The position numbers and the translations under genes are program-made. 64,000 nt of DNA from Xanthostigma xanthostigma (lineage: Eukaryota > Arthropoda > Insecta > Raphidioptera > Raphidiidae), in NCBI GenBank assembly GCA_963575645.1, contig OY754468.1:10168001-10232000 (forward strand). Reading direction: 5' to 3'. Each line of letters opens with the position of its first letter. Within the stretch, counting starts at the first letter, position 1. The notes beneath the pieces are model-generated. The model ran no database searches. It had not been told where the DNA came from and saw only the letters and a program-made list of their open reading frames with translations. Shown here in pieces: positions 975-34,342 of the stretch.

Positions 975-1759
975 GTGACCGGTAGTTGCTCGTATTCGTC
1001 TCGGGAGAAGAAACTATGACTAATTTGGAATGATTTAACCTCTGTCACTTGGGGGTCGGAAATGCGTCATTTACGAGAAAGTCTACTTTGGTTTTCTTTT
1101 TACAAAAATCCGAATTTTGGGAGTAAAAATTTTAAAAAAACATCTTACTTTTTGGGCTGAATTTTTGCATAATAGCTTACTAATTGGCCATCCTTCCTGA
1201 AGCTGAAAACCTCGAAATTTACTGTTAGATTTTATATTGTGTGTTAAAAGGTACAATAAATAAAAAAACAAAATGAAATAAAAATTCAAATCTTTGATTA
1301 ACGTCTGAATAGAACTCTTCAAATAAATAAAATTGTCGAACAATTTTTCTCAGACCAATATATTGACAAAAAATAAAAAAACAACAAATCAATATAACAC
1401 AAGATGACGTTGCGATCCGGATTTGGATCTTCTTCAGAAAACTCTAAAAAATTTAAAAATTATTACATTAGTTATTTAATATAGAATGCACGATGATTGA
1501 ATATTTTTGAAAGAATCAAAAGAAATAATGAACGTCATCTTGTGTTATATTGATTTGTTGTTTTTTTATTTTTTGTCAATATATTGGTCTGAGAAAAATT
1601 GGTCGACAATTTTATTTATTTGATGAAATAAAAATTCTTCACAGAAGTGTCATTATTATAAAAAATGACGCATTTCCGACCTCTAAGTATAGAAGTTAAA
1701 TCATTCCAAATTAGTCATAGCTTTTTCTCCCGAGAGGACAACGAGCAATTACCGGTCAC
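975..1759. mobile_element. MITE with CCGGTAATTGCTCG terminal repeats, copy 1
   Basis: The ends GTGACCGGTAGTTGCTCG and CGAGCAATTACCGGTCAC are inverted. The inverted homology runs inward for about 110 bp on each side, through TTTGGAATGATTTAAC and the TCGGAAATGCGTCATTT segments. A foldback element (1288-1622) sits inside, so this MITE is older than that insertion. No transposase is present. Confidence 0.75.
1288..1622. mobile_element. Foldback Penelope-like element with 15-bp target duplication
   Basis: The flanks 1273-1287 and 1623-1637 are identical 15-mers (ATGAAATAAAAATTC). The arms are inverted copies of each other, from TTCAAATAAATAAAATTGTC inward to AACGTCATCTTGTGTTATA, with about 36 extra bases at the left end. 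On the minus strand near 1406-1440 lie CTGAAGA, a GATCC/GGATC hairpin with a 6-base loop, then GCAAC. This resembles a hammerhead core with one change in GAAAC. The long variable duplication favours retrotransposition over cut-and-paste. Confidence 0.7.
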
Positions 1760-2084
1760 TCTATGAATAGAAATTCCACTAGACTTTAGCAGTCGTAAAA
1801 AAAGTGTTTCAGTTTAAAATTTGTCACAGTGTAGGTAAATATAAAAAAGAAATAACAGGATGTACAGGATCACCATAGGTTAGGAAATGTAGGTTATGTT
1901 CTATGACTCAATACAACAAAAAAGTCACTTGAACATGTGTTATCATTTACCTCGTTTTTAAAACACGTGTTAAATTTTTATCTAATTTGCTCGTTTTTTC
2001 TTACCAAGCAAATTGCTACACATCATGTTCATATGACTTTTTTCTCGTTTTGGATCATAGAGCACGATTGTATTTTTATGACTT

Positions 2085-2777
2085 ACTAGCGGCCCGGTCC
2101 GGCTTCTCCCGAATTTGTAGATTGCCACCGTTTTTTTCGTCGACTTACAATGCAAAATTGGTTTCCACAAAAAGCCTTTTTATTTTAACGCCATAATATA
2201 TAGCCTAACGTCCATCCTGAAGGTCCATTCTAAATATTGCTGAAAAAAAATTTTGAAATTGGATGAGTAGTTTCGGAGATTACCTCCTACTTACATCCAA
2301 ACTTTACCTCTTTATCCAAATCTTCTTGGTTTCCAGGCTTCTATGCCGTGGTCCATTGGTATTACTACCTAACGTTTCGTCTACAACTGAGGTAGACATT
2401 ATCAAAGGCGACGTAGTAGCGGGGTCAACCGCAAAGATGAAGATTTGAATCTAAGTAAAACCTGGACACCAGCACTGTGCCCAATGGAACGACCAATCAC
2501 GAGAATACTACGACCGAGTAGAGAACACGAGCACGCTGACTATAAAAGGCAGGAAGTACCACACTTGTTGACACACTTACCTGTGAGCAGCCTAGAGGCT
2601 AGAAGGAAACTTCGCCCGCGACCACATTACCTTTGATGATGTCTACCGCAGTTATAGATGAAACGTCAGGTAGTAATACCAATGGACCACGGCATACAAG
2701 CCCGGAAACAAAGAGATTTGGATCAACATCGACCGTGAAAGTCTACACACTTTACCTCTTTATAATGTTAGTATAGA
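2085..2777 (-). mobile_element. Non-autonomous Helitron split by a foldback element
   Basis: On the minus strand the element starts TCTATACTAAC (its end at 2777) and finishes at ACTAG (2085-2089), the reverse of CTAGT, next to a CGGCCCGGTCCGG segment. The interior carries the TTTCGGAGATTACC region usual in lepidopteran Helitrons. No Rep or helicase sequence remains. Confidence 0.65.
2316..2748. mobile_element. Foldback element with 15-bp duplication and hammerhead-like box
   Basis: Identical 15-mers ACTTTACCTCTTTAT flank it (2301-2315 and 2749-2763). About 110-bp inverted arms begin CCAAATCTT and carry CATTGGTATTACTACCT. On the plus strand TTGATGA (2633-2639) and GAAAC (2660-2664) bracket a GTCTA/TAGAT hairpin, and the other arm has the mirror version. 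The GC-richer centre (about 2440-2630) has no recognised coding content. Confidence 0.7.
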
Positions 2778-3003
2778 TGATTGTGTTACAACCTATATAT
2801 TTAGTATAGCTGGTTATAATTCGAGTTAAAAGATCGTATAAAACGCCAAAGTAAACTGAAGTATTCGATACGGTGATCTGGTGTCAGTCAGTGTAATTGA
2901 CAGCTTGTTAAAAATGTAACTATATCGTGTCAACTCAGGGTCTCTCAAACGGTTCAAGAACCAAATCGTTACTTCAGAAAACTAATTTTGTATGCGTTTG
3001 TAC

Positions 3004-3685
3004 TAGTGATGTGTCCACATGACTCTTTATTGGGAGCTGGCTCCGTGCGCTCCGCTCACTAAAAAGAGTCGCTCAGAGGGAGTCGTTCAAAGGAGCGACA
3101 CTAGACAGCACGCATTACACAAGAGTGCAGGCTGCAGAGGTGAACTGTCATCATGCATGCTCAGGAGTCACGAATTGCACAGCACAATACACACTCAGCT
3201 CTGAGCTCATTTTAATAAGATTCTGATCTTATTCAAATCTTTGATTAACGTCTGACTAATTATATTTTTTGTTAATATATTGTCTGAAAAATTGATCGAT
3301 AATTTTATTCTGATCTTATATTATTCGCATTTCGGATAAATTATAAAGTATAATAAAAGCTTAACAAGAATAATGTTTATTGTTACAATAGTATATTTTT
3401 GTCAACGACATCAATGTGAATGATTTAAGTCACTGTAAGCTTAGTACTATTGCACTTACAGTGTGTCATTCAACATTAAATGACTCAGCAAAGATAACTC
3501 CGTACGTGCAAAATTCAGTAGTGCCTCTGTGGCATGTACTGTGTGCGCTATATAAATATGCGAATGCAACAGTACAGAACAGCTCAGCACAGAGCAATGG
3601 TGCTCGGAGTGAGTCATTCACAAAAAAAGAGCGACTCACTCTGCTCCGAGAAAGCAGTCGTTCATTATGAACGACTCGGTCACTA
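3004..3685. mobile_element. hAT MITE, copy 1
   Basis: The ends are TAGTGATGTG and GGTCACTA. The 8-bp flanks GTTTGTAC (2996-3003) and GTTTATAC (3686-3693) differ at one base, the duplication size of hAT elements. Two more copies lie at 21410 and 32861. AGAGCGACTC and its inverse recur near both ends. No transposase frame is present. It holds a 74-bp foldback fragment at 3233-3306. Confidence 0.85.
3233..3306. mobile_element. Truncated foldback element inside the hAT MITE
   Basis: It begins CAAATCTTTGATTAACGTCTG and ends GATCGATAATTTT, matching the outer parts of the 1288 family. It is flanked by the 13-mer ATTCTGATCTTAT at 3220-3232 and 3307-3319. The other hAT copies have that 13-mer only once, so the empty site is visible within this window. 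Confidence 0.8.
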
Positions 3686-3693
3686 GTTTATAC

Positions 3694-4147
3694 TGATGTA
3701 TAAATTCTTACGAGTGGCCCGCTGAACCGATTTTGACACAATCATTACGGTGTAATTCGACGAGAGAGAGCGTTACAACAAGCAAACAAATATGAACATA
3801 CATTTTATATTGATTTTTGAAGTAACGTACAGAAATTTTATCACGTTTCAGTATGAAAATATGTTGCATTTTACAATATTATTAAATATGTGCAGAAACC
3901 ATTTGACGCGATTTACTGCCATTCAAAGCAGTTGACGGTTCTCTGAACCGTGAATATTATGCAGTAGCGTATTTCTTATGCTTTTGAAATATGCATGAGG
4001 GCTGTCCAATTTATTGTACCCAAACAATAATTTTTTTGCAAAATATATTTTAATATACTTCCAATTTAGGTTAAATTAAATTTTTAATGTAAATTTTTAA
4101 TGTATCTGACGCTATTATATTCCATGGGAATTTTTAAATAAAGAAAT

Positions 4148-4170
<23 letters not shown>
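3694..4170. other. AT-rich spacer ending in a (TTA)n tract
   Basis: No gene was recognised. The (TTA)n run at about 4148-4175 follows AATAAAGAAA and may be a LINE or SINE tail. Confidence 0.4.
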
Positions 4171-4178
<8 letters not shown>

Positions 4179-4179
4179 G

Positions 4180-4581
4180 AGTAATATTGCTCGTATTCCC
4201 CTCGAGAGAAGAAACTATGAGTAATTTGGAATGGTTTAACGTTATCACTTGGAGGTCGGAAAGGCGTCAGTTTTTTATGATAGTGACACTTCTGAAAAGA
4301 ATTTTTATTTTTTTTATTTATTGTAAGTTTTAACACACAATATACAATCTAACAGTAAACCTGGTTCTTAGCTTTAGCAAGGTGGCCAATTAATAAGCTA
4401 TCAGATCATAGAAAAAAAGGCCAATAAGTGAGATTATTTTTTTTTATTTATAACTCCCAAAATTCGGTTTTTGTAAAAAGATAACCATAGTAGATTTTCT
4501 CGAAAATGACGCATTTTCGACCCCAAGTGATTAATGGTCATAGTTTCTTCTCTCGAGCGGAATACGAGCAATTACCGGTCG
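4180..4581. mobile_element. MITE with CCGGTAATTGCTCG terminal repeats, copy 2
   Basis: It shares the TTGCTCGTATTCCCCTCGAG left arm and the CGAGCAATTACCGGTC right end with the copy at 975-1759, but lacks the nested foldback. The comparison shows the family's own length is about 400 bp. The left terminus is a few bases short. Confidence 0.7.
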
Positions 4582-4607
4582 GTATTAGGGTCGTCTTTAT
4601 TTTCATG

Positions 4608-4880
4608 ATAAGTAAAGATCAAGCGATCCAAAAATTAGTTGTTAACAATTTTGAAGACAACGTCTACTGTGGCCAAAGGATCCAGAAAAATGCAATAACA
4701 GATATTAAATTTGCATTTATTGACTAACGTTTCGAAAGATTTACCTTCATTACATATTTGACGGCATTTGTACTTTGAGGATGAACGTAAATCTTTTGAA
4801 GCGTTAGTCAATAAATGCAAATTTAATTGCGTTTTCCTAGGTCTTTTGGCCACTGCAGACGTCTTCAAAATTGTTAACAA
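4608..4880. mobile_element. Foldback element with 12-bp target duplication
   Basis: The 12-mer TTTATTTTCATG flanks it (4596-4607 and 4881-4892). Inverted arms include TTGTTAACAATTTTGAAGAC and AAATGCAAATTTAAT-type segments. Near 4720-4800 each arm has a CGAAACGTTAGT-like box on one strand with a short hairpin before it, a decayed version of the hammerhead-like motif. Confidence 0.7.
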
Positions 4881-4892
4881 TTTATTTTCATG

Positions 4893-7470
4893 GTTTTAGA
4901 ATGTTACGTTTTGCACCCTCCTTATGTTTCCAAAATACGATTATCAAAAAAAAATACTGAAATGCCGCGTCGCCTAATTTTGATTTTAATACTAACGCCC
5001 CAAAATGATCGAAATTTGAATTGCAAATTACTTTTATTTTATTGATCTCATCACTTCACGGCTGTAAATAAAATTTTTTTATCAATAATTTTTTAAATTT
5101 CTATGTTTTCGTTATACGCACAAACTCGCATATTTATTTCTTTCGTTTCGTTAGATTTTAAATTTTTAGTCAGAAATAGTTTTCCAAAAGTTGCTTTAAA
5201 TAAACTTTCCTTAAAAAAAATATTTGACTAAAAAATTATTTTTTCTAAAAATTTCAGAAAAAAGGGTAGTTTAAATTTTTGAAAACTAAAATTTTTAAAA
5301 CAAAAGCTAAGTTGTTGACAGATATGTTCTTTAAAACATTTTTTTCCGAAGACCTGTAAATACGGTGTTTTGCATGGTGGAAGAAACGGAACATTTTTAT
5401 GGTGGAAGCGACGTGATAGTTACGGAAATTTCTTATGATGAGAGGTTGAGAAATTTAGGTCTTTATAAAAATATATTTTTACTCCCTACCAAATGACTTA
5501 TTGACGTAAAAATTTGCAGTCGTAAGCAGTTTTGATGACAATACAAGATTCTATTTTTTTTTAATTTATCAGACTAAAAAATTAAAAAACAAAGTTTGCA
5601 GTTTTTAGACACGCACTTAAATGTAGAATAGTATATTGTGCAACTAGTGCGACAATGCCGCACTAGTTCCACATACTATTTTTTATTACGAATTAAATTA
5701 AATTAAAATTAAAATTTTATTACGAATTAAAAAAAGAAATTAGAAGTAATAAAAATTAAAATTAAATCATTAAAAAGTTGAAAATTCAGTTAAAATTGTT
5801 AAAATTGTCAAGAATAAAACTCCATAATCGAAAATTTTAACCTCAAATCTGCTTCAAATGACAGTTTGTTTCGTTGACATTAACACCGTTATTATTTTGT
5901 TTTTTTATCTGAATTTGCGTGCGGCAAACAATAATTTCAGTGCGACAAATAAAGTTTCCACACGCAAATGAAAATAGCTACTTTTCAGCCGTAACAGCGT
6001 GCGTAAACATACCACTTTTCCCGCATGAGTAATAAAAATAAAGTTTCCGCACGCAAATGAAAATAGCTACTTTTCAACTGTAACAGCATGCGTAAAGATA
6101 CCACTTTTCCCGCATGTGTAATAAAAAATAAATTTATTCATTTTGTATAACGTTTAAAAGCGTGAGGCACTTTATTTCATTTTATTCATCGAGTGCCCCT
6201 CGCTTTTAAACGTTATAGAAGAGACAGAAATGTAATTTCTTCTTTTCAGTGCGTCAATATAAACGTGTTTTTTAGATTTTTTTAAAACTACAAATATTAT
6301 ATTGTGTTTCATTTTATAGATCGTTTATGCATCACTGGAATCGAGCGTACCTAAATTTATGTTTAAATAAATTTTATCTCTGCGCGTCAGTTTTTGATTG
6401 AACGCAAAGCTAATTAAAAATATTGGAAATAGAACTACGATTTTTATTTGTTTGTGAAATTGTACAAGGTGTACACATAAAATGGTGGATGTATAATCAA
6501 TCCTATCAAAAACACAAATGTGAAAAACGGAGCCAAGTTTAATATTCAATTCGAAACGCGATTTCGTGCGTGGCATAATTTTGAGCGGTTATCCGGTCAG
6601 ACTCGCGTTTTTTATTTAAATATCCGGGACAAAAAGTGTTTATTTTATCATAAAAAATCAGGAACTGCAAAAAAACGGGGTCCCCATTTAAAAAAATGAG
6701 TGCAAGTGCATTGCACTGCACCGAAATGCACTAGGTCATAAAAAAATCCGGCAATCGGTTTCCCCCCTGAAACTATGAAAATTATTACAGGGGGTAAAAT
6801 TCCTTTGAATGCAACCTAAGGGAATAAATCAGGTGTTTGGTTTTTAAAAAACCATACTGTATATATTTTCACTTCATAATATTTTTATTGCTGACGGTTT
6901 AGTCACTTTGAAAATCTGAATTGTTTACAAGACAAAGCCTACTTTGCTTCTCTGTCGCTTTTATGGAATCAAATGGCAACTGACTGATAAAACTATTCAA
7001 TCGCAACGTTTGTTTTATTTTACACACTAGTGCAAAACGGATCAATTTACAATCGCTATACAGGTATGAAAAAACATTTTTGTACTATACTATTTCCATT
7101 TGATATGTGAAACTGGGTTGTGATTGTATGCGCGTTAAGAAACTAAAACAAAGAAATCAAATAGAAATAGGCCATTTTGTTGTGGATTTGAGCAAAAAAA
7201 AGAGAAGAAAAACAAAGACTAGAGTTCTTTTCTTTCACGGCGCTTAGTGCGAAAGTAGGCAGTTTGATCTGCGTTGAAATTTCGACTGGCTTCTAGCTTT
7301 GTGTAAACAGACATTTGTCGTCTCCTATCCTTATCTAAAACACAACGTGATTAACACGTCATCAATCTTCGTCCTCGAGTGTGCACAGGACAAACCCTAA
7401 TACAGATGCTTACAGACTGATATTTATATAATATATACGGGGTGTCCATTTACCGTCCATTCTAATGAAG
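4893..7470. other. AT-rich region without genes; small palindromes and a tandem duplication
   Basis: Nothing here resembles a protein. A palindrome at 5641-5669 pairs CAACTAGTGCG with CGCACTAGTTC. A hairpin pairs 6147-6162 with 6201-6216 (16-base arms, ATAACGTTTAAAAGCG). Two copies of an 89-bp unit occupy 5948-6125. From 6230 to 7440 I see no structure. Confidence 0.5.
5948..6125. repeat. Tandem duplication, 89-bp unit, two copies
   Basis: Both units start AATAAAGTTTCC and carry ATGAAAATAGCTACTTTTCA and CACTTTTCCCGCATG. They differ at a handful of bases. The origin is unknown. Confidence 0.8.
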
Positions 7471-7473
7471 GTT

Positions 7474-7720: not shown

Positions 7721-7789
7721 ATCTTCTCTTATATCAATAATTAATAAGAAAAATCGCAGGTTTGTGGACAAAAGTTATATTTATATATG

Positions 7790-8225
7790 TAGGACGTTTC
7801 GTCTATAAATTTAGACTTTTTCAAGTACAGTATGAAAATTATTTAAAACAATAATTATGAAAATAAACATTAATTACTTACCATAGCAATTACAGAAGTT
7901 AAAGTACATAAGACAAAAACATGGTAACAAGTTTATGTATAAATTTTTAAACAATAAAAAATAATAATTAAAAATTCGAAAGTTAGTTCAATTTCATAAC
8001 ATAGTTGTACTGACTACTTAAATTTTGAGTGTCTGTTCTATAATTAATAGAATTGTTTTTTCTAATAAAACACGTTTCACTGATATTACGTTTCTTCCAA
8101 TTTGACTCTTTATCTAATATTTGAACTTCATTAAATAGAAATTTATGTCCAGTGTCGAAATGATGAGATGACAACGCGGTCTTATTATCACTTAATAAAT
8201 GTATGTTTCTACAGTCCATTCTGTA
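7790..8225 (-). pseudogene. Penelope-like element remnant: GIY-YIG endonuclease C-terminus and tail
   Basis: The minus-strand frame 7983-8219 reads DCRN, TALSSHHFDTGH, FNEVQILDKESNWKKR, ISE and INYRTDT, the typical C-terminal part of the GIY-YIG endonuclease of Penelope-like retroelements (the region after the catalytic YIG and Arg motifs). Downstream on the same strand, near 7795-7830, are a GTCTA/TAGAC hairpin and GACGAAACGTCC, the hammerhead-like box known from the terminal repeats of this class. No reverse transcriptase remains. The fragment is non-functional and gives a likely autonomous relative for the small foldback elements. Confidence 0.65.
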
Positions 8226-8329
8226 TAATGCAAATATCCAAATTCATCGTCACACTATTCAAGACTGTCCATTTTGCAATAGTGTAGTGTAAATACTTCA
8301 TTTTAGTATGAAGTTTTTAATAGATTCCA

Positions 8330-8590: not shown

Positions 8591-8599
8591 GTATAAACA

Positions 8600-9649: not shown

Positions 9650-9880
9650 ATAAACTAGTTAATCGAATCGTTAATCTTCTAATAAATAAAATAATCGACC
9701 AATTTTTCAGAAAATTTATTGACAAAAATTATAATAATATAATTCAATAGATTTACGTTTCGGTATGGATTTAGGTTTTTTTCAGATTTGATCTAAAAAT
9801 ATAAAAAATAATTATTAATTATCTTCTAATAAAATTCAATTTGGTTTTTAATGAAAAAATTATAACAAACTATAGTTAAG
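9650..9880. mobile_element. Partial foldback element of the 1288/33986 family
   Basis: It contains AATAAAATAATCGACCAATT, TTCAATAGATTTACGTTTCGG and TCTTCTAATAAAATTCAATTT, in the same order as the left half of 33986-34342. The right arm is missing. Confidence 0.6.
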
Positions 9881-17597: not shown

Positions 17598-17705
17598 TTA
17601 AATCTTTGATTAACGTCTGACTGATTGCTCCTCAGTAAATCAAATTATCGACCAACTTTTCAGACAACATATTACGAAAATATTTAATTATAATTCAATA
17701 TATAT
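17598..17705. mobile_element. Partial foldback element
   Basis: AAATCTTTGATTAACGTCTG, AATTATCGACCAACTTTTC and AGACAACATATTA match the left arm of the 1288 family. No second arm. Confidence 0.55.
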
Positions 17706-19807: not shown

Positions 19808-21168
19808 TACGCTAAGGTTAAAGATGTTTGCCTCCCTTTTTAGAAAAAACCTCACAATTTCTCCACATAAATTATATATCATTATACAGATATTTGCTTG
19901 CTCTACTGACATCGACAACAAAAAAATTTATTATTGCTTTTGTTTTTGTAAATTAATTACAATACAGCAACGCTGAACAACGTCTGCCATCTGACGGCTT
20001 TAATTTTGAAACAACGTCAACACTACAGTTCGGTTAGATTTTCACTTATCTTGTAACTCTCACGATTGGCAAATTAAAGTACTGTTAGACAAAAATAGTA
20101 TTGAATCTTCTGACTCTACAAAATTTTTGGGCATTCATATTACTAGCAATCGAAACTGGAGCGATCATATTAATAATAAGTGCAATAAATTAAGTCAAAT
20201 AGTTTACATGTTCAGAAAATGTAGACCGCTGGTAAACCAGTCAGTCTTAATGCATATGTACTACGGCTATTTTCAATGCGTATGTAGTTATGGCATTATA
20301 TTTTGGGGTGGATCGTCTGCGGGCCTGAACTCTATATTTTTGTTACAAAAAAAGATTGTAAGAATAATAACAGCATCAAATTATTTGGCTCCATGTAAAC
20401 CTCTATTTAAAAATAATGATATTCTTACAGTACCTTCCCTCTTTATTCAAGCATGTGTGTTATTTGTCAGAGAGCATATAAATATGTTTCTCAGAAATTC
20501 CGATGTTCATGGGCGCAATACAAGACATTGTTCTAATTTAAGAGTATCCAAACATTGTTTGGAAATAGTGTGTATAGTAACTGCATCTAATTCTACCACA
20601 AATTACCGAAAACCATAAAGGAAACAAAAAATCCGAAAAAGTTTAAACAGTTATTAAATAACTAATTAAAAATAAACGCATTTTATAGTACAGACTACAG
20701 AGGAGTACATGTGTTTGTAATAATTGAAAAGTTGACTCTCTTGAATATTATCTTCTTTCAAAATTTTAAAATTTCGAATTTTTAATTATTTATTGTGCTA
20801 TTTATTGTTTAAATTATTGTTAAAATAATATAACATTTGACAAACTCTCCTGTTATACGCATGTCATAGAGCAATACAAATTATTATTATTATTATATTG
20901 TAATACAACAGACACAATACTGCACACTGCCATCTGACGGCTTAGCTCAACGCTTTTGCTACTTACGCCTCTATATGACAATTTTAGTAAAATATTTCTT
21001 CGATCTGTCATCTGAGCTTCATATTGTATTACAACAAAAAGAAGAACGTTATAAAAGGTGTGCAAAATTAGAAACGAATTGAATACCTTCAATCATATTT
21101 AAAAAATAATTTTGTAAAGTGATAATTAATATACTTATTTAGTGCGAATAATTCGCAGAGGTCACACT
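19808..21168 (-). mobile_element. GTGTGACCTSYGCG repeat, interrupted by a LINE
   Basis: On the minus strand it starts AGTGTGACCTCTGCGAATTATTCGC and ends AACCTTAGCGTA, the same ends as 42521-43103. About 850 bp of LINE sequence (roughly 20010-20890) splits it. It has no recognised transposase. The terminal palindrome GCGAATTATTCGC is present in both copies. Confidence 0.7.
20020..20890 (+). pseudogene. LINE (Jockey/CR1-like) reverse transcriptase C-terminus
   Basis: The frame from about 20060 reads STKFLGIHITSNRNWSDHI, then LSQIVYMFRKCRP, YYGYFQCVCSYGIIFWGGSS, and LQKKIVRIITAS, the thumb/connection region of Jockey- and CR1-type LINEs. A frameshift near 20600 moves to the frame giving LPKTIKETKNPKKFKQLL. 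A (TTA)n tail at about 20880-20893 ends the copy. It is 5' truncated, as LINE copies usually are. Confidence 0.75.
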
Positions 21169-21409: not shown

Positions 21410-23110
21410 TAGTGATGTGTCCATATGACTCTTTATTGGGAGCTGGCTCCGTGCGCTCCGCTCACTAAAAAGAGTCGCTCAGAGCGAGTCGTTCAAAGGA
21501 GCGACACTAGAAAGTAAGTACTACAAAAGAGTGCAGACTGCAGAGGTGTGAACTGTCATCATACACGCTCAGGAGTTACGTTGCATTGCACAGCACAATA
21601 CACACACTGAGCTCTGAGCTCATTTTGATATGATTCTGATCTTATATTATTCGTCTTTTGGATAAATTATAAAGTATAATAAAAGCTGAACAATAATAAT
21701 GTTTATTGTTACAATATTATATATTTGTCAACGACGTCAATGTGAATGGTTTCAGTCACTTTAAGCTTAGTACTATTACACTTACAGTGTGTCATTCAAC
21801 ATTAAATGACTCAGCTCAACTCCGTACGTGCAAAATTCAGTAGTGCCTCTGTGGCCTGTACTGTGTGCGCTCTGTAAATATGCGAATGCAACAGTACAGA
21901 ACAGCTCAGCACAGAGCAATGGTGCTCGGAGTGACTCATTCACAAAAAAAATTGGTTGTCTGTAAAGTCGGTTTACGGACGATAGTTTTACGTGATAACG
22001 TATTTCGTAATACATAACCTAAATTTATATAATAATTATAATAATTCGAATCTATGATATTGCATCTTTCGCTTCAAATTTAGGTAAATTTTATTACTCA
22101 CCACCTATAAAAATAATTTTTATTAACTTTCTTTCTTTCGTATTTATTTAAGTCTCAAAGATTAACTGTCATACTATTTATAAAACAATTGTTTCACTGG
22201 TTATATAAAATTCCAAAACCTACTTACAATATTTAAGTATTTTCATACGTCAAAAAATTGATTTTTAACTATATAAAGTACACTATTATTATATAAAAAA
22301 CAACTATGGCATGTATCTCTTTTGCGCATGCGGCGATTTTCCTCAAAAAATTTACAAACATTTCTATTAAAAATAGATAGAGTAAAAACCGTTTTAAAAA
22401 CTATATTATTATTATATAAAACATCATTATAAGAGATATATTCTTTTACGCATGCGCCGATGTTCCCCAAAAACAATAGCCAACTTCATATTTGCATATC
22501 AAACATCCTCCCAAAATTTGGTTTCAATCCGCTTATCCTTGGTGTCGGAATGATAAGAAATGTCAAAAGTGACGTTTGCAACTGTCAAAGTATTATGTTC
22601 TAATAATAATTAGTTATTCCAATACTTAACTTAGAAGGCGTTGCATTTCACAAAATACTAATGTCAAAAAATTGAATTAAACATTATAAATGCAGCCGTT
22701 TTCATGTTAAGACAAGACATACGTTATCTTCTAATTTCCATGTACGGCAAACAAAGACGACCGACCGCGTCGCGCCATGCATTAGACAACATTGCATTTA
22801 TACAGCTATTTTTCTATATAAATTTGTATAAAAAAACTGTTTAGGCAAATTCTGTTATACGAAATCTATGTAAAATGTTCTCCTCTTTCGTTTAAGACTG
22901 GTTTCAAACCGATCTGATTTAAATTGAGCGAGAAATTAGCAAAAAGCACGCACAGGGTCAGGCGGAACGTTACGCGTTACGAACGTTAGGAACGTTACAC
23001 TTTTTCGTGCATGCAGCCGGTGTTTTATCAATTTATAAGATTGGTGATTCATCAATTTATAAGACGTTATCACGTCAAAAAGAGCGACTCGCTCCGCTCC
23101 GAGAAAAGAG
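21410..23110. mobile_element. hAT MITE, copy 2, split by a 1.1-kb insertion
   Basis: TAGTGATGTG at 21410 to CATTCACAAAAAAA (about 21946) matches copy 1. The homology resumes at GAGCGACTCGCTCC (about 23081) and stops near 23110 without a clean right end. The intervening DNA is a separate repeat. Confidence 0.75.
21947..23080. mobile_element. Lepidopteran repeat TTGGTTGTCTGTAAAGTCGG, copy 1
   Basis: It runs from TTGGTTGTCTG to GACGTTATCACGTCAAAA and sits in an A-run of the hAT MITE. A shorter inverted copy is at 25806-26372. CGTGATAACGT occurs near both ends. A CGCATGCGCCGAT segment (about 22310-22560) is repeated at 32150. No coding content. Confidence 0.65.
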
Positions 23111-23535
23111 TCGGAACTCGGAATTGTTCCGTCGCCCAATTGACTGGAATTTTTGAAGTTGGAATGATTCTGTCGCCCCATTGACTGGAATTTTTTATTT
23201 GTATTTGTCAGCTTTCTCCTGAATTTGGCTTCAGTTTAATTGTTTTTGTTTACTCGAATGCGAACATAGAATTATAGTTTTCCCAGTGAGTTTTTTGAAA
23301 TCTTTTTGTCGAAAATAAAAATTTCATTGTTCAATAACAAATGACGCTCGTTGAATTCCTCTGTGTATTTCAGGCGGGTTTTTGTTAGCCTGCTCTTGTA
23401 AGCTGACTCGAACACACCAGTATTGTGGTGGTTACTGGTGTGTAGATACACCTCTTCGTCTGTTTATACCAGTGCTGGTCAAACGGTGTTTCTAAATGTA
23501 CGTTTTCGGCAAACTGTAAATCGTGACTTTTAATT

Positions 23536-23814
23536 CATTGTACCTATTTGCATCCATACTTAAAATATTAATATTGAAATCGTAGGATTGTGGACTTATA
23601 TAGGTATAGTATGCTTATCAAAAAACCAATTTATATTTTAGCGACGTTCTGCCCCTTTTATTGGGGCTTCTGATATAAAAACAAAAAGCAAAACAATATT
23701 TTGTATTGGGTGTGTTTTGCTTTTGAGTTTGTATTTGTATCAGAAGCCTGATGATGCCCCAATAAGAAAACGAAACGTCGGTAAATTATAAATGTGTGTT
23801 TTGATAAACACACT
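23536..23814. mobile_element. Foldback element with clearest hammerhead-like box
   Basis: GTGACTTTTAATT is duplicated exactly (23523-23535 and 23815-23827). On the plus strand CTGATGA (23748-23754), a GCCCC-AATA segment and CGAAACGTC (23771-23779) follow in order. The partner arm, read on the minus strand near 23640-23670, keeps the full GCCCC/GGGGC stem. Together they look like the hammerhead domain of Penelope terminal repeats. No coding sequence. Confidence 0.72.
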
Positions 23815-23827
23815 GTGACTTTTAATT

Positions 23828-24464
23828 TTAATTAAAAATGTATCCAAAGGTTGTAGCCTAGTCGAGAATTGAGTTTCTTGAGAAAAATAGTTCCAAGTTC
23901 TCAAAAAATATGAGCAATAGCTTATTTGAATCGAAAAAATGTTCCAAAAAAGACGTTTTTATGAAATTGCAATTGTTATTAACAAAAAATGAAAAGAAAA
24001 AAAGCTCCTCAGATTTTTGGCAATTTCTCAAAAACTATAAGCGATAGCTGAAATTAAGAAAAAATATTCTTAAAGAGAAGAAAAATTCCAATAAAAAAGT
24101 CTCACTTCCCACAGTCTATCTCTATTGTTTATAGTTTTAATTTAATGTTGAAAATAAGGTTCCGCGGGGCTATTACAGCTCGACCGGAACGCTCTGTTGA
24201 GAGAGTACAACACATAAAATATTTTTTTATAGTATTAAATAACAATTCAAAAATTTGAATAAATTATGGTGTCATCTTAACACTTGAAAGAATAGAGTTC
24301 CGTTGAAAAAAATGTTTAAATTCATTTTTAACAAAGTCTTGAAAATAACACAAAATGTATAAATAATTCGCTTATACATTTTTTGCTTTATGAAGCCATT
24401 AATTTTACATATATACCTACTTAACAAGGTCACGTTATAAAAGTTTTTAAAAATCGTTTATTTT
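23828..24464. other. AT-rich spacer without recognised features
   Basis: No gene or repeat ends were recognised here. Confidence 0.4.
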
Positions 24465-24601
24465 AAATCTTTGATTAACGTCTGAATAGAACTCTTCAAA
24501 TAAAAAAAATAAAATTGTTTTGTTATATTGATTTATATTTTTATATTATTTTTTGTCAGTATATAGTCTGAAAAAAATTGGTCGACAATTTTATTTATTT
24601 G
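24465..24601. mobile_element. Short foldback element with 13-bp target duplication
   Basis: AATCGTTTATTTT flanks it (24452-24464 and 24602-24614). It keeps AAATCTTTGATTAACGTCTG and GGTCGACAATTTTATTTATT ends but lacks the hammerhead-like centre. Confidence 0.8.
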
Positions 24602-25034
24602 AATCGTTTATTTTGTTTATTATGGTTTTTTAGAGCTAACATTTTGACAATTTCATTATTGAGGTTGACAATAATTGATAAACTAAAAATAAGCGAGACT
24701 TGCAGTAGTCGTCAATATTTATTTATTAATACTTACTATTTACCCTACTAGTTTTGGAAAATTATTTCGTAGCTAGTCAGAGGTGCTGCTCCCAGGAGAA
24801 AGCCTTATTCAAAAATGTTGATGTTTACTGGTTTATATTATATGAATGTGTCTGTATATTGTTTTTGCATTCGTTGAAATTGGTAGGCGATAAATTTAAC
24901 AATCCACGACACTTCGCTTGAACAAAACCTTGTACTTTCGTTGTACTCCGACTAAAGTGGTTCGCCTTGACACGTCACAAGAGTAAACCAAATTGCAATT
25001 TTTTTTAGAAAACCGAAATGAATTGTCACTGTCA

Positions 25035-25352
25035 ATTATAATACGCGCCACGAATCTAAAAGGCTCGGAATTTATATGCGAATGCGCGGTTCCGCTTGTA
25101 CAGTCTGTTGAAAAACTACAACAAAACTAAAATAGCAATAACAACTTGACAATAGCGTACTCGACTGTACTTTAAAGCGGGAAAGCGACAAGTGACAAAG
25201 GCAACGAGCGATCACGGCCAATCACCGACGAGCGCACGTTCCGTGCAAGTAGCTGGGAGGTGGTGGGAGTATCAACGGCTCTAAAATGTGCCTTTGCGAC
25301 GCTGTTTGTGACTGACTCCCGAACATTTTAAATCCGTGGCGCGTATTATAAT
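25035..25352. mobile_element. MITE, ATTATAATACGCGCCACG ends
   Basis: An 18-bp inverted repeat bounds 318 bp of GC-richer DNA. Superfamily and duplication not determined, because the AT-rich ends are ambiguous. Confidence 0.6.
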
Positions 25353-26372: not shown

Positions 26373-26817
26373 TTTTTTTTTAAGTAAGAACTTTATAGTG
26401 CCTACATTATATAACTGCCAAAGTATTGCATAAAAAGGAATAGTATGTGTTAATAAATAATTTATGTACAATGTTCACACATTGTATATGTTACGCTCAA
26501 AGATCAAAAACGCTCAGTGAGCGAAAAAATAGCTCACAACGCGTTGTGGTCACAGTAAAACATCCGCATGGCGAAATTCGTGTTATGGCTCTAATGAAAA
26601 CGCGCACGACGCGTTGTGGCAATCACAAAGACCAAATAGCGAAATTCGTGTCGTGGCTGACATGCTATTCGATGTCAACGCGTTGTGGCAATGAAGAAAA
26701 GCCATGACGCGTATGGAATATTATTTAATTACGACGCACACTACTTTCCGATATGGATCCTACTAGGCCTAGGCTGGAAACGTTTTTGTAGATGTCCTTA
26801 GGAAATACTTTTTATTT

Positions 26818-26820
<3 letters not shown>

Positions 26821-26889
<69 letters not shown>
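26821..26889. repeat. (AAT)n microsatellite
   Basis: About 23 units of AAT or ATA form an almost perfect run. The Ile-rich peptide it encodes is an artefact. Confidence 0.95.
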
Positions 26890-27055
26890 TAATATATCTT
26901 TAGTCCATCATACTGAGTACAGTGTAGAATGGGTCAACATTAACAATTTTCAAGAGAAAACAATAAAAATAGAAAATATTATCAATATGGCTGACTAAAA
27001 TATTCGTTCATAGAATAAAAATTATTTGTTTTTAAGTACATTTTGAGCTATAAAA

Positions 27056-27394
27056 TCACTGCATAATATAGATGCTGAGCGAACCTTGACTTTGAGAATG
27101 TCGAGGCTTTCCATGAACAAGTTTCATCCCTGGCCACATTTCAGCTAAATTTTTGATGACTTTATTTGAAAATTCACGACCGTTGTCGCTTTGCAGTATA
27201 CATGGAGCGCCGAACAAACAAAATATATCTAAAAGCTGATATGCTACTTCTTCAGCATTCTTCGTTTTGATTGGTCTTAGAAAAGTAAATTTAGTCAAGT
27301 GATCTTGATAATTCATAATAAATTTATAATCTTTATCTGGTTCAGACGGCATATCGATTAAATCAACTTGAAATATAGAGCCGACACCGACAAG
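27056..27394 (-). pseudogene. Integrase-core fragment of the Ginger-like element
   Basis: The frame reads QVDLIDM, MNYQDHLTKF, EEVAYQLLDIFCLFGAPCIL, QSDNGREF and HGKPRHSQSQG. This is the rve-type integrase core with the first two acidic positions of the D,D-35-E triad (in VDLID and SDNG). The closest relatives I know are Ginger transposases and the host KRBA2 proteins related to them. It is a partial remnant, bounded by TIRs of the same element. Confidence 0.75.
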
Positions 27395-27732
27395 TTACAA
27401 CCTGTCCGTCGTGATATGGTAAACAATGAATGCTCAGAACGCGTCATGGCTTTTCTTCATTGCCAAAACGCGTTGAGATCGAATAGCATGTCAGCCACGA
27501 CACGAATTTCGCTATTTGGTCTTTCTGTGATTGCCACAACGCGTCGTGCGCGTTTTCATTAGAGCCATAACACGAATTTCGCCATGTGGATGTTTTTATG
27601 TGACCACAACGCGTTGTGAGCTAATTTTTCGCTCACTGAGCGTTTTCGATCTTTGAGCGTAACATATAGATACACATACACATTTACATATATTGTGCAA
27701 GTATTTATAAATACATATATTTTGTTGAAGGA

Positions 27733-28515: not shown

Positions 28516-28774
28516 AAAAATGTTAAAATGGTTTTTTTAATAACTTCTTCCTGTTTATCGAATGTCGAAATTAGATTTTGGTCTCGAGGACCCTAAAAGG
28601 GTCCCGTAGGGCCCAACTTTGAAATTTTAAATGGAAAACATACTTTTTTATTTCATATTCAGATCCTGCGGGAAATTTTAGATAGAAATACGTCTTAGTA
28701 TTTTTTTTAATAGGCCGTGTAAAATAAATATCTAAATTTGAAATCATTGACTTATTTTAACCTAAAATATTCGT

Positions 28775-29028
28775 ATGATAAAATTATACGGGATGCAAGG
28801 CTAAAATATTAAAACAATTTTTATTCACTAGAACATTATTTATTGGTCAACGTTTAGGCAAAATTTTTTGTCTTTTTCAGGACCTTAATAAAGTCACAAA
28901 GGCAAGAAATTTTGCCGAAACGTTAACCAATAAATAATCTTCTAGTGAATAAAAATTGTTTTAATATTTTAGCCTTGTATCCCGTATATTTTTATCATAC
29001 CATAATACCAAGGTGTCATTTTATTTTG
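28775..29028. mobile_element. Foldback element with 13-bp target duplication
   Basis: CTAAAATATTCGT is duplicated exactly (28762-28774 and 29029-29041). Arms of about 100 bp begin ATGATAAAATTATACGGGAT. In the right arm a GGCAA/TTGCC hairpin precedes GAAACGTT (28917 onward); the left arm on the minus strand has CTGAAAA and TAAACGTT. Confidence 0.75.
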
Positions 29029-29589
29029 CTAAAATATTCGTTTTGAGAAGAAATTTCACTAATCGATACTTCATAAAGCTTCTAAAGCTTGATATTGAAC
29101 CTTAATGCTCCTTTGTAGGGCCCCTAAAAAGATCTAAAAGTGCTCAAGGTGAATAAATCTGAATTTAAATTCGGTGACTTAGTATTATCTTAAATACTTT
29201 CTTTCGGAATGAATTTTTACAGTTTCAGCTCGCCTCGGGCATCATGAATCGCATTTCGAGGTTCTTAAGAGACAGTATTCTTGCTTAAAAAAATTAACCC
29301 AAAACTTAAACGTTTATGTTCAGAATAAGGATTGTCACATAATGGTGAACGAACTGTACCTATCGGAACTAAGAGCAGTGTTAAGTGAAAACCAATTTCG
29401 ATCATTGACTGAACTATTCTTTTCATTCGGCTTTGTATAAACTCCAACACAAATACGATGGAATTCTATACGATTAGAGTTAATCCACGACGAACCAAGC
29501 GGCTAGTGAAACAGAAACTCGCGGAAAAAAGGGTTTTCATTGAAGATAGTTCATTGTTACAATAGAACCAAATGAACAAATAATTATGA

Positions 29590-29640: not shown

Positions 29641-29706
29641 CGAGAAAAATTAAAAAGAAAAAATGCTTTTTTAAATATGTCAAATATAGATAGAAAACGA
29701 AAATAA

Positions 29707-30460
29707 TCTATATTAATATATAAAGCTGAAGAGTTTGTTTGTTTGTTTGTTTGGTTGAACGCGCTAATCTCCGAAACTACTGTTTTTTTTTTTTTTGTTG
29801 GATAGCCCATTTATCGAGGAAGGCTATATGCTATATAATATCACGCTACGACCAATTGGAGCGGAGCATCAATGAAAAATGTTGCAAGATGTATCTCAAA
29901 ATTTGTCCGTCCGACAAATACTAACAGGTGAAATGCCCTAACTAAATATTGCAATATTAGCGCCTCACAAATCACAATCACAAGTCCGGATAGCTCAGTC
30001 GGTAGAGCATGAGTCTCTTAATGCCAGGGTCGTGGGTTCAAGCCCCACGTCGGCGAATATATTTTTATTTTTTTTTTATATTCTACATTGCTTCTTCTGA
30101 GGCTTACATTTCAATTTTTTAAAATTTTATTATGCCTAATTAAAACTAAATAAATCTAATTAATAGCTCATTTGAAAAGTGACTATAGGTACCTATATAA
30201 AAATAATTATCCTACAGTGTTTTCAATTAAAAATTTATTATATTTTATTAATTACAGTAATTATTGATTTAAAAGTAATTTATTACCAAAAAAAAGTATA
30301 AATACTGCTTTTTATCGACAAAAACTTTTGAACGCTAACTCCGATCATCATGAAATTTGTACACAATATTCATCTCGGTAAACTAAGATGAATGTGCGTA
30401 CTCATGTCCCTCCCCCCATTCGTTCTTTTGCACTCGGGTGAAACCGGGCGCGGCCGCTTG
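29707..30460 (+). mobile_element. Non-autonomous Helitron with tRNA-Lys-like segment, copy 2
   Basis: It starts TCTATATTAATATATAAAGC after an A and ends CGGGTGAAACCGGGC, CGGCCGCTTG before a T. The interior holds GGATAGCCCATTTATCG and CGGAGCATCAATGAAAAATG, then a tRNA-Lys-like segment at about 29992-30063. No Rep/helicase sequence. Confidence 0.7.
29992..30063 (+). pseudogene. tRNA-Lys-like pseudogene (anticodon CTT) in a Helitron
   Basis: The D arm GCTCAGTCGGTAGAGC and T arm GTGGGTTCAAGCCCCAC are intact, and the anticodon loop is CTCTTAA. The anticodon stem (TGAGT/TGCCA) and the acceptor stem have several mismatches, so it is probably not functional. Confidence 0.65.
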
Positions 30461-30675
30461 TATATTATATTTATACAACGCTGTCGTTAAAATCTTTGTC
30501 ATGCAGGACGTTTGACTGCACTCATAGAAAAACAATTGAAAAATGTTGCTTTTCAAAAACAAATTTTCATCAATAGAACAAAAAAATGTTAATTCGAAAC
30601 GAAAACTATACAAATAACCATGTTAAAAACATCTGCACACAGTTTAAAGAATGATACACCAGAACGTTAGTCTAA

Positions 30676-30885
30676 GGCCTAGTTTATATGAGAGGCGTTC
30701 AACGCGCGTTGGCCCAACGCGCGTTTACAGTTTCTATACAATTGTATAGAACTGTTTATATGATAACGCGCGTTGGTGGCGCGTTGAACGCGCGTTATCA
30801 TATAAACAGTTCTATACAATTGTATAGAAACTGTAAACGCGCGTTGGGCCAACGCGCGTTGAACGCCTCTCATATAAACTAGGCC
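30676..30885. mobile_element. PIF/Harbinger-type palindromic MITE, 210 bp
   Basis: It begins GGCCTAGTTTATATGAGAGG and ends in its exact complement, and TAA flanks both sides (30673-30675 and 30886-30888), the 3-bp duplication of PIF/Harbinger. The two arms of about 100 bp pair almost perfectly, with ACGCGCGTT units repeated inside. Almost identical 64-residue frames on both strands arise only from the palindrome and are not genes. Confidence 0.88.
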
Positions 30886-30888
30886 TAA

Positions 30889-31690
30889 GAATGTATGTGG
30901 TGGGAGAGCGGGTCATATATGGTGGAAGTAATGGTATGTAGCAATGTAGCATGCATACATTATATTATTATTGTGCTAAAAGAACGGCTAATAACACTGT
31001 TATATTATGATTTAAAATTATAATTGTGTATTTCGAATGGATATTTTTGCACATTGCACATTGAATTATCGTACTCTAACCAAAATATTTTTCTTCAAAC
31101 GTTTGCTTCTTCTATTATTCATTATTAAAAAAAAGAAAAAATTAACAAAAAAAAAAATAACTTTGAGTAACTGAACAACGTTACACTGGGAAAGATTATA
31201 TTATTTAAAACTTTATTTCTGTTTTGACATCGGTATGCGGTAGTTTGTCTTATATAAATTCCAATTACACAAATACTCTTTTCTTTTACCCGCATTATAA
31301 ATAGTCTTTGTGAACTTTGTGCAGACGAATATCTGCAGCTTTATTAAATCAAACATATATTTTTATGACTGACCCACATTTCCTTGTAGCGGTCACTATT
31401 TTATATGTAAAGTTGTCTGTAGTGTTTCATTTGAATATAGGCATGTCTATAGACAGTTCCAAGAGATTTTAGGAAATTTTTTTCACCATTTCTACCGTCC
31501 TCTTCAAGGGATTAATTTAAGTCTGAAAATGTGTAAGGCTTAACACCGAACATGTTCAACTTAATCTCAGTTCGGAAATTGGAAATACAGGTAGTTGAAA
31601 GATGATCGAGAACGTGTTCAAAATTTAAAAACGGTACTACAATAAATTCTTTGTATAGGCTGTGTGCACGAAGTGGATATTATAGAGAAT
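30889..31690. other. AT-rich spacer without recognised features
   Basis: No family-like ORF, repeat end or RNA gene was recognised. Confidence 0.45.
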
Positions 31691-31692
31691 TC

Positions 31693-31965
31693 TAATCTTT
31701 GATTAACGTCTGATTAGAACTTTTCAGTAATTAAAATTATCGACCACTTTTTCAGACAAATATATTAAAAAATATTTCAGTCAATTGGGCGACGAGACCA
31801 TTCCAACTTCAAATATGTTGACATTAATTGATTAAAATAAAGAAAATAAAATTTCTGATATCGCGTGAGTATTCAATATGATATTTGCTATTCGTTGCCA
31901 TGGTTACCTACATAATATGTTCCACGTCATGTAAAAATTAATCAAAGCATGCCTAACTAGTTTAT
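31693..31965. mobile_element. Foldback fragment joined to the inverted 9880-10075 repeat
   Basis: AATCTTTGATTAACGTCTGA to CAGACAAATATATT is a partial foldback copy. From CAGTCAATTGGGCGACGAG the repeat of 9880-10075 follows in reverse. Confidence 0.55.
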
Positions 31966-32089
31966 TTCTGACAGACCCATAAAACAAAAGAGCGGCTTAT
32001 TTTTTTTATATTCAAAATATTTCCAAAACTATAAAGTTTTAATAATAATTTTTTTGACAAAACTTTCTTGAAAAAATTAATAGAATAAT

Positions 32090-32380
32090 AAGCCGTTATG
32101 AAAAGTATACCATTATTATATAAAAAAACACCGTTATAGTATATATCTCTTCTGCGCATGCGCCGATTTTCCCCAAAAACAATAGGGTCTTCATATTTGC
32201 ATACCAAACATCCTCCCAAAAATTGGCTTCAATCCGCTCATCCGTTTGACCTGTATCGTGTTCACAGACAAACAGACTAACAGACGCACAGTTTTTCGAA
32301 AAATATGTTTTTTGGATTCGGGGGACCTCAAAACAGAAAGATATTGTAAAATTTTTGACCTAAACTAGTACCATTCCCCA
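32090..32380. repeat. CGCATGCGCCGATTTTCCCC repeat
   Basis: It shares CATCCTCCCAAAA, TTCAATCCGCT and the preceding TTATATAAAAAAACACCG-type stretch with 22270-22560. GGGACCTCAAAAC is a common insect repeat tail. Termini not resolved. Confidence 0.5.
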
Positions 32381-32384
32381 CTTG

Positions 32385-32516
32385 TGGGTTGGAATGGTAA
32401 AATATATAAATTCAATACATTAACGTTTCGGTCCGGATTAATGTATTGAATTTGTATATTTTTTGTTAATATATTTGTCTGAAAAATTGGTCGATAATTT
32501 TATTTATTGAAAAGTT
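32385..32516. mobile_element. Partial foldback element
   Basis: It contains AACGTTTCGGTCCGGATT and GTCTGAAAAATTGGTCGATA, the right half of the 33986 type. A second arm is missing. Confidence 0.55.
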
Positions 32517-32860
32517 TACTAATCATACTTAAAAAGTACATCCTACAAAATATTCTTTTAGACCTGTTATCTATCTCAATGGACATAGGATTTTCCAAAA
32601 TACTGTAAATGTTAAATTTAATTTTGATTACACCCTAAATAAGCCCAACTCCCTAAAAAAAATTTGTGTTTTAAAAATATAAAATTCAGATCCGAAAGGG
32701 ATAAAATGGAACGCCCAGTATAAATAAGACGAAATAATTGAAATGTTGTTTCACGAAACAAACTCATTCGTAAATGTAAACATAAGACAACGTAAATTAA
32801 AAAAATAGTCCACTTTCAAACGATAATTCTCAGTGGTCCTGGCTCGTGGCAGATGGATAT

Positions 32861-33420
32861 TAGTGTCGTGTCGTTCCTTTCTCGGAGCGGAGCGAGTCGC
32901 TCTTTTTTTTGTGAACGACTCGCTCCGAGCGCCATTGCTCTATGTTGAGCTGTTCTGTACTGTTGCATTAGCACATTTACAGAGCGCACACAGCACAGGC
33001 CACAGAGGCACTAGTGAATTTTGCACGTACGGAGTTATCTTTGCTGAATCATTTAATGTTGAATGACACACTGTAAGTGTAATAGTACTAAGCTGAACAG
33101 TGACTTAAACCATTCACATTGACGTCGTTGACAAAGATATAATATTGTAACAATAAACATTATTATTGTTAAATTTTTATTATACTTTATGGTTTATCCG
33201 AAATGCGAAGAATATAAGATCAGAATCATATTAAAATGAGCTCAGAGCTGAGTGTGTATTGTGCTGTGCAATGCTTTGTGACTCCTGAGCATGGCATGAT
33301 GACAGTTCACACCTCTGCAGTAGTGCGTACTGGCTAGTGTCGCTCCTCTGAGCGACTCTTTTTAGTGAGCGGAGCGCACGGAGCCAGCTCCCAATAAAGA
33401 GTCATGTGGACACATCACTA
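32861..33420. mobile_element. hAT MITE, copy 3 (inverted)
   Basis: ATGGATAT is duplicated exactly at 32853-32860 and 33421-33428. The ends are TAGTGTCGTGTCG and GACACATCACTA. It is the cleanest copy of the family, uninterrupted at 560 bp. Confidence 0.9.
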
Positions 33421-33474
33421 ATGGATATAGTTCTGACGGAAGTGTAGTAATACGTTTGAAGTAAAGGTTTTATT

Positions 33475-33720
33475 TTAGCGCTCGCCGCACTGCCGTTCCT
33501 TGTACGGACACCGATAATGTGGCTTTTCCAATTCGATTTTCACGACCGACGGCCGTTCGACCCGGTAACGGCTGCCTGCATGTCGACGGCGAGACGAGAA
33601 GCGACCGGGCGACGGCGGGGAAACGAATTGCCTCGGGCAGGTCGCGTATCAGATCGTTTAAACGTGACGTTAGCGAATTGGTTTGCTTATGGGTATCGAG
33701 TAGATGAGTTAATATCAGTG
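33475..33720 (+). other. GC-rich island with an ATG-started open frame
   Basis: A T-rich acceptor-like tract ending in TTTTAG (to about 33479) precedes a CG-rich stretch. A frame opens at ATG 33517 and stays open for 134 codons, but the compositional signal fades after about 33700. The peptide is rich in Arg and Asp and matches no family I know. It may be a first exon or chance openness in GC-rich DNA. Confidence 0.25.
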
Positions 33721-33985
33721 GCGTACTTCGTTAAGGGCGCTCCTAAATTAAATGCGTTATACAAACGATACTCATGTTTCGACCTACTTCAAAAAAAAAT
33801 TGTCGATTCGTTATGTAAGGTAAAGAGCCCAGTTATTGACACTGGCTCAGTGTTTCCGACACTTATTTTATTTAAATTAAAAAAAGACATTATCTCGAAT
33901 AGGTTAATAATTTTTTTTTAGTTTATTGAATTTTATCGTGTACCTAATTAATGGCAGAAACAAAAATTAAGAAAAAATAACTCAA

Positions 33986-34342
33986 ATCATTGATTGACGT
34001 CTGATAATCTTCAAATAAATAAAATATTCGACCAATTTTTCAGGCAATGTATTGACAAAACAAATTTAAATCAATAGATTTACGTTTCGATCCGGATTTG
34101 GGGTTTCTTCAGAGTTGATCTAAAAGTATAAAAATGTGAACATTAATTATTAATTAGCTTCTAATAAAATTCTATTTGATTTTTAATAAAAAAATTATAA
34201 CAAACAATTTTTTGATACGTAGTCATGGATATATTTTTAGAAGGCCCAAGTCCGGACCAAAACGTAAATCTATTGAATTATATTATTTCAATTTTGTGTC
34301 AATACATTGTCTGAAAAATTGGTCGATTATTTTATTTATTTA
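33986..34342. mobile_element. Foldback element, fullest copy of the 1288 family
   Basis: AAAAAATAACTCAA is duplicated (33972-33985 and 34343-34356). Arms carry CGACCAATTTTTCAGGCAAT and the complementary right end. On the minus strand near 34085-34125 CTGAAGA and CGAAACGTAAA bracket a weakened hairpin; CCGGACCAAAACG is its partner in the right arm. Confidence 0.75.

Follow-up and report, generated by a model that had tools for sequence, protein, structure and literature searches.

Foldback elements of Xanthostigma xanthostigma as probable terminal units of Penelope-like retrotransposons, with proposed reverse transcription on two strands and head-to-head joining

A 64,000-nucleotide stretch of the 623-Mb genome of Xanthostigma xanthostigma (contig OY754468.1, positions 10,168,001 to 10,232,000; called the window below) contains eight small foldback elements which, at a probability we put at roughly 0.7, are 3'-terminal units of Penelope-like elements (PLEs), each made by two reverse transcriptions that begin on the two cut target strands from different internal sites of the RNA, with the resulting complementary DNAs (cDNAs) joined head to head. 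What has been read from the sequence is the end structure of the elements, their target duplications, relatives of the insertion sites that are uninterrupted, inner junctions that vary between copies, and a PLE with reverse transcriptase (RT) and endonuclease domains that is built in the same way.

The ends of the elements are unequal, one arm running about 30 nt further out than the other; this extra stretch is called the tail, and in the window it is seen by end comparison in families A (1288 and 33986), B, C and E. Many arms also carry a hammerhead-like core, discussed below. The eight elements belong to five sequence families, with strands given here in the sense orientation. Family A includes the foldbacks at 1288..1622 (minus strand; tail at the left, about 1288-1317; core about 1406-1437; duplication 1273-1287 / 1623-1637, 15 bp) and 24465..24601 (minus; tail at the left; duplication 24452-24464 / 24602-24614, 13 bp), the mini-foldback at 3233..3306 (minus; tail arm of just about 24 nt; duplication 3220-3232 / 3307-3319, 13 bp) and the diverged copy at 33986..34342 (minus; tail at the left; core about 34081-34112, minus; duplication 33972-33985 / 34343-34356, 14 bp). 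The other four elements are separate: family B at 2316..2748 (plus; tail at the right, about 2723-2748; cores 2371-2405, minus, and 2633-2667, plus), family C at 4608..4880 (minus; tail at the left, about 4608-4638; decayed core near 4725; duplication 4596-4607 / 4881-4892, 12 bp), family D at 23536..23814 (plus; core 23748-23779, plus; duplication 23523-23535 / 23815-23827, 13 bp) and family E at 28775..29028 (plus; tail at the right, about 29000-29028; cores about 28849-28880, minus, and about 28893-28924, plus; duplication 28762-28774 / 29029-29041, 13 bp). The family B duplication is 15 bp (2301-2315 / 2749-2763) when wider slack is allowed and 12 bp in a narrower frame.

All eight flanking repeats of 12 to 15 bp claimed in the preliminary description of this DNA are present where it placed them (15, 12, 13, 12, 13, 13, 13 and 14 bp, in order of position), and among 8000 random window frames of equal shape only 0.7% give at least 12 bp. 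Joined flanks from 31 insertions were compared with the window and with the collected genome loci, and nine alignments were inspected. The 13-bp word duplicated around 3233 occurs once, exact and in line, at two uninterrupted relatives in the window (21476-21795 and 33063-33358), and a third such relative, locus L034, has the word with differences; at the level of sequence, these alignments demonstrate insertion with target duplication directly for 3233. The same is well supported by alignment for L065 and L053, whose uninterrupted relatives have the word once, with one difference each. A relative of L011 has two differences, and a relative of the 1288 site lacking the element (window 4186-4442) keeps 12 of the 15 duplication bases, beside a gap of 9 bases on the left. 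The 1288 foldback itself is a nested insertion within another inverted-repeat element (975-1759, with arms 975-1043 / 1691-1759 that are 90% alike), which has a relative at 4186-4572.

As the preliminary description had also proposed, the duplications are both longer and more variable than a fixed short one, ranging from 12 to 16 bp at AT-rich sites, as expected of PLEs; the 41 listed duplications of at least 12 bp are 82% AT, compared with 66% for words of the window. This range and the unequal ends, where symmetric terminal inverted repeats and a fixed short duplication would be looked for, make it most improbable that the elements are miniature inverted-repeat transposable elements (MITEs) or foldback DNA transposons mobilised by a transposase, in spite of their small size, inverted arms and lack of coding capacity. 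Moreover, their ends and duplication length match those of a PLE with RT and endonuclease domains (L052, below), and 9 of 11 other inverted repeats of the window that were tested likewise have no direct repeat of at least 8 bp at their ends (the remaining two, at 25035 and 7545, have 8 and 9 bp).

Family A is the most informative about how the ends are formed. Searching the genome with the 1288 element turned up 1459 first-look candidates, and 40 of them were scored; the resulting set comprises 41 loci (L009-L049, L009 being the window element) at 40 places, as L031 and L035 are the same place. The reference unit S, 268 nt long, was taken from the one-armed copy L037, which has an 11-bp flanking repeat; its hammerhead-like core begins at position 120, the predicted cut lies after 151, and the tail occupies 239-268. 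Mapping S on the 40 places gave 35 two-armed and five one-armed copies. In 30 of the 35 pairs, one outer end lies at S262-268 and so includes the tail, while the other, tail-less, end lies at S228-248; this amounts to 30 of the 32 pairs that can be classified (binomial 1.2e-7 against an even independent choice at each end). For L012, which is nested within another family-A copy, the mapping paired the outer nested copy, and the correct arms again show one tail. Duplications are at least 12 bp long at 28 of the 40 places and 10-11 bp at five; the best score in displaced controls (20 per locus) was 10.

The inner ends behave quite differently from these constant outer ones. The pairs of inner end coordinates are distinct in 35 of 35 family-A foldbacks (for nine of them, another pair is no more than 2 nt away on both sides), and the 24-nt core of the junction is shared exactly by none of the 595 copy pairs, with six pairs coming within 4 mismatches. 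Given differing junctions together with constant outer ends, the foldback seems to be remade at each insertion rather than propagated. The preliminary description had taken the foldback as the replicating, non-autonomous unit, amplified as a hairpin, and this part of its account did not hold up: hairpin amplification predicts shared junctions, and it does not account for one-armed copies with duplications (L037 in family A; L062, L064 and L071 in the family P described below). The high copy number agrees with it, as does the similar size of the top matches, which the choice of query would explain equally well; altogether, hairpin amplification appears quite improbable.

Within a copy, the two arms resemble each other slightly more than arms re-paired between different copies do (0.963 versus 0.955 over S162-236 in 32 copies, with 0 of 2000 shuffles as high), and there are 18 off-majority bases common to both arms, seven of them at S182, compared with 86 in one arm alone. 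This likeness agrees with a single source for both arms, without proving it.

The same anatomy is found in a coding PLE. On the minus strand of L052, two overlapping frames contain RVT_1 (E 1.5e-9) and GIY-YIG (PF01541, E 4.3e-7) domains, the overlap of frames making this copy look broken. The domains sit between inverted repeats that are 98% alike, each carrying the core CTGATGATGCCTTTTTAGGCGAAACG, and the whole is flanked by a 14-bp duplication containing 1 mismatch, with a tail on one side only. Pseudo long terminal repeats (pseudo-LTRs), a mark of PLEs, are thus seen as inverted pairs, both in L052 and in the foldbacks. The combination of telomerase-like RT and GIY-YIG was found in family P, to which L052 belongs, and the kinship of families A-E to PLEs is supported by the end features that they share with L052, namely architecture, core, tail and duplication length; in this the PLE assignment made in the preliminary description finds support.

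Family P was found through an exact core pattern and not by foldback shape, though several places were picked for having two adjacent cores. Its terminal unit in L052, 584 nt long and called P, matches 21 separate places among the collected loci. All eight classified two-ended pairs (L052, L053, L054, L055, L060, L063, L065 and L067, with L054 interrupted) have exactly one tail, and L001, interrupted like L054, also fits; L007, L056, L066, L068 and L070 were left unclassified, and apart from the diverged L008, treated below, the remaining places are one-ended. Duplications, sought at 16 places, are 12-15 bp at 10 and 10 bp at one. The P pseudo-LTR on its own makes foldbacks with 13-15 bp duplications (L053, L055, L060, L065 and L067). 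In two families of this single genome, the two sites are regularly used one apiece instead of at random. In family P the tail arm was also the shorter arm in 6 of 7 pairs without L052 (6 of 8 adding the interrupted L001), numbers too small for any claim to be made.

A single tail is hard to obtain if one cDNA snaps back and is copied, as copying to its own first base predicts matching ends; a one-sided tail is found in 38 of 40 classified pairs, and the joined positions are no more than 20 nt apart in just 4 of the 35 family-A junctions. Self-priming of this sort has been proposed for the palindromes of bdelloid Penelope elements, there on antisense RNA (PMC3846280, in the portion available), and it would give arms inverted head to head and alike within a copy, as well as the few near-symmetric junctions (3/3 and 30/30) and the symmetric L056. 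On balance such snap-back synthesis is judged unlikely here.

The hammerhead-like boxes described earlier in five of the elements, with a decayed version in a sixth, are seen again on direct reading: in the left arm of 1288, with GAAA decayed to GCAA; in both arms of 2316, where the first C is a T; in the right arm of 23536 and the left arm of 33986; and in 28775, whose left arm has CTGAAAA and TAAAC and whose right arm has the stem and GAAAC with no CTGA box. The 4608 box is decayed. Among GAAACGT sites in the window and collected loci, 45 of 115 have a CTGANGA-like box and a stem of at least 3 bp, compared with 0 of 21 in letter-reversed sequence; family A accounts for 30 of these 45, and overlapping loci enter the count twice, so independent support comes from the differences between families. 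Across a set of 12 cores, pairing holds in 91.7% of stem II cells (30-40% in slid controls), with a covariation score of 0.876 against 0.266 when shuffled, which backs a motif of hammerhead type. An extra base stands between CTGANGA and stem II at 44 of the 45 sites. GUH comes immediately after GAAAC in 10 of the 12 cores, so that helix III is absent; L004 has AUA, and L003 has AUG, in violation of the NUH rule. Under that usual rule, AUG is not cut by a hammerhead. PLE hammerhead motifs that have no helix III are on record (PMC6155905 and PMC7761336, in the parts available), and the cores fit a predicted ribozyme of this PLE type.

Measured from the predicted cut, the end without and the end with the tail lie at 87 and 117 nt in family A, 82 and 109 in P, 87 and 118 in C, 76 and 104 in E, and 55 and 81 in B. 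Retrozyme-type elements, which would spread by ribozyme-cut circular RNA, should have ends at the cut; here, taking in family D, the ends are 35-118 nt away from it, and the units are paired head to head where those of animal retrozymes are tandem. A hammerhead-like core within small non-coding elements is what such elements would share with ours, and an origin of this kind has very little probability.

The preliminary description had counted the lack of a hammerhead model match as speaking against its view, and no match was obtained: the Rfam hammerhead models gave none in the window at gathering score, and none when E values as high as 10 were allowed for window 1200-5000 plus seven loci, a search that had no known PLE hammerhead as positive control. 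This part of the test thus went against the proposal, and it has not been taken as refuting it because PLE hammerheads are described as having no helix III, which the canonical models expect. Matches of hairpin stretches to microRNA families were below gathering scores and were taken as inverted-repeat artefacts. Two further hammerhead-like cores, in other sequence, lie at L041:53 (minus) and L041:725 (plus) and perhaps represent more PLE families, and L058 has a core-like pattern twice on the same strand, at a spacing of 168 bp (C2:67172002 and 67172170), in a tandem, not inverted, direct repeat of about 170 bp.

Constant outer ends, a single tail and differing junctions together point to two internal start sites, one per cut strand, with their products joined, and a scheme of insertion can be proposed on this basis. 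The elements would be 3'-terminal, or pseudo-LTR, units inserted by the PLE machinery; in sense order, each would consist of the unit, the hammerhead-like core, some 55-90 nt, a proximal end, the tail of about 30 nt and a distal end. Both target strands would be cut, 12-16 bp apart, at AT-rich sites, and reverse transcription would begin inside the PLE RNA on both of them, from the distal site on one strand, giving the end with the tail, and from the proximal site on the other, giving the tail-less end. The two cDNAs, with varied 5' stops, would then be joined head to head. Where both are short the outcome would be a coding-less foldback, where one is long a PLE with inverted pseudo-LTRs, and where only one strand is used a plain 5'-truncated copy. 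In this scheme we infer the PLE identity of families A-E, that synthesis begins on both strands and from one site per end, and any part played by the ribozyme. A broader proposal, made tentatively and at somewhat less than even odds, is that PLE retrotransposition is normally two-ended and asymmetric, with one start site per cut strand, the tail being the stretch between the sites and foldbacks being a normal short outcome instead of a by-product.

Several observations weigh against two-strand synthesis from PLE RNA. The ranking of the family-A loci was by their similarity to a single foldback query, which inflates the proportion of foldbacks as well as that of similar junctions; the query, being itself one-tailed, is not neutral either, though no route was seen from such ranking to the one-tail rule. 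Among the family-A pairs, L027 has two tails and L034 none, and L026, L030 and L048 have odd outer ends; in family P, both ends of the diverged L008 may be tailed (P583 and P571), and the palindrome L056 is symmetric and has no duplication. Family D is an exception at both ends, with a left extension of about 72 nt, exceeding the other tails, and a tail-less end just 35 nt from the predicted cut. No usable duplication was found at 7 of the 40 family-A places or at 5 of the 16 family-P places. The arm-likeness effect is small and leans on S182, and gene conversion or subfamily structure could contribute to it. At the junctions there is no excess of microhomology, overlaps of at least 2 occurring in 0.40 of joins and 0.39 of random ones -- joining by microhomology was rejected for this reason -- and at least 5 bases unexplained with respect to S are present in 40% of joins, compared with 2% at random. 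No coding parent was found for family A, nor for families B-E. It was also considered whether short arms end at the ribozyme cut, as their ends cluster at S141-161 around S151; the query's own junction (19/146) biases the ranking, several ends pass the cut, and this is not claimed.

Other PLE-related features of the window include a remnant at 7794..8243 (minus strand), with a C-terminal coding piece at 7983-8243 and a core at about 7793-7824. The preliminary description had noted it, as a Penelope endonuclease remnant with a box at 7790-8225; by tblastn its peptide has a relative in the L052 PLE (E 2e-8, 40%), though it gave no Pfam match of its own above the cut-off. Further copies or fragments of family A, all on the minus strand, are a tail-less fragment at 9675..9870 (core near 9755-9785), a single arm with tail at 17600..17702, and a pair of arms at 31694..32508 enclosing about 690 bp of other sequence, for which a search of the flanks gave no duplication. 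Elsewhere in the window, long inverted repeats with arms 96-99% alike and no direct repeat of at least 8 bp at their ends lie at 26485-27668, 36487-36955, 30671-30890 and 37753-38275, and are perhaps DNA transposons. By eye, an open frame at 20010-20618 resembles the C-terminal part of a non-LTR retrotransposon RT, and frames at 43137-45059 resemble a leucine-rich-repeat protein in two pieces.

Each foldback preserves its two outer ends, its junction and, in many cases, its duplication, and so gives a readable record of one insertion event. If true, the rule that a tailed end is paired with a tail-less one would explain inverted pseudo-LTRs and their short extension together by a single step. 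It predicts that reverse transcription starts as an asymmetric pair, a prediction open to checking in the Anolis system already available in vitro. In annotation, hairpins of this kind should be placed under PLE derivatives and not under MITEs.

Hammerheads lacking helix III in PLEs were reportedly described by Cervera and de la Pena in 2014 and by Lunse et al. in 2017. The cores seen here resemble the published PLE variants, so far as those were available, in having CUGANGA, stem II, and GAAAC followed directly by NUH; the extra base before stem II is usual here. Animal retrozymes, from the available part of PMC7229834, are small non-coding tandem repeats with type I hammerhead motifs and circular RNA, suspected of being mobilised by PLEs. 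They share with the foldbacks their small size, lack of coding capacity and hammerhead motif, and differ in their tandem arrangement, fuller hammerheads and circular RNA, where we find head-to-head pairs with ends beyond the core.

The insertion mode of PLEs is largely unknown (PMC11167929), and inverted pseudo-LTRs with a short extension have been recorded as oddities of single copies (PMC8969392, in the part available). A literature search over titles and the beginnings of abstracts gave no report of non-autonomous PLE foldbacks, and no claim is made that there is none in print. Pen2a of Adineta vaga, as presented in the accessible portion of PMC3846280, has inverted pseudo-LTRs of which one carries a 31-bp tail, duplications of 8-10 bp and solo pseudo-LTR derivatives. 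The likeness thus extends to the inverted end repeats, the optional one-ended tail, the duplication outside them and the solo derivatives; the Xanthostigma elements differ, within the same limits of that source, in their 12-16 bp duplications and in that coding-less foldbacks are numerous, core-bearing and have copy-specific junctions.

A close parallel comes from Poseidon of Anolis carolinensis (PAc), as described in PMC11167929. Its reverse transcription start data are mostly from in vitro work, where it is copies in the genome from which the use of one site per end is read here; the main text of that paper gives no description of foldbacks, and mutants of the PAc ribozyme showed no effect on insertion. 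As in the scheme proposed here, a hammerhead lies upstream of two internal start sites bounding a tail -- the PAc tail is the stretch between them -- and the targets are AT-rich; the PAc protein cuts and extends both strands in vitro. Inside the PAc frame, the preferred start is reached after 111-118 bp and the cut after 26 bp (PMC11167929), from which a cut-to-start distance of 85-92 nt is obtained by subtraction, compared with 81-118 nt from core to distal end in families A, B, C, E and P. The PAc frame begins at stem II, and a short open frame within the family B foldback (2316..2748) likewise begins at its right core, at 2636.

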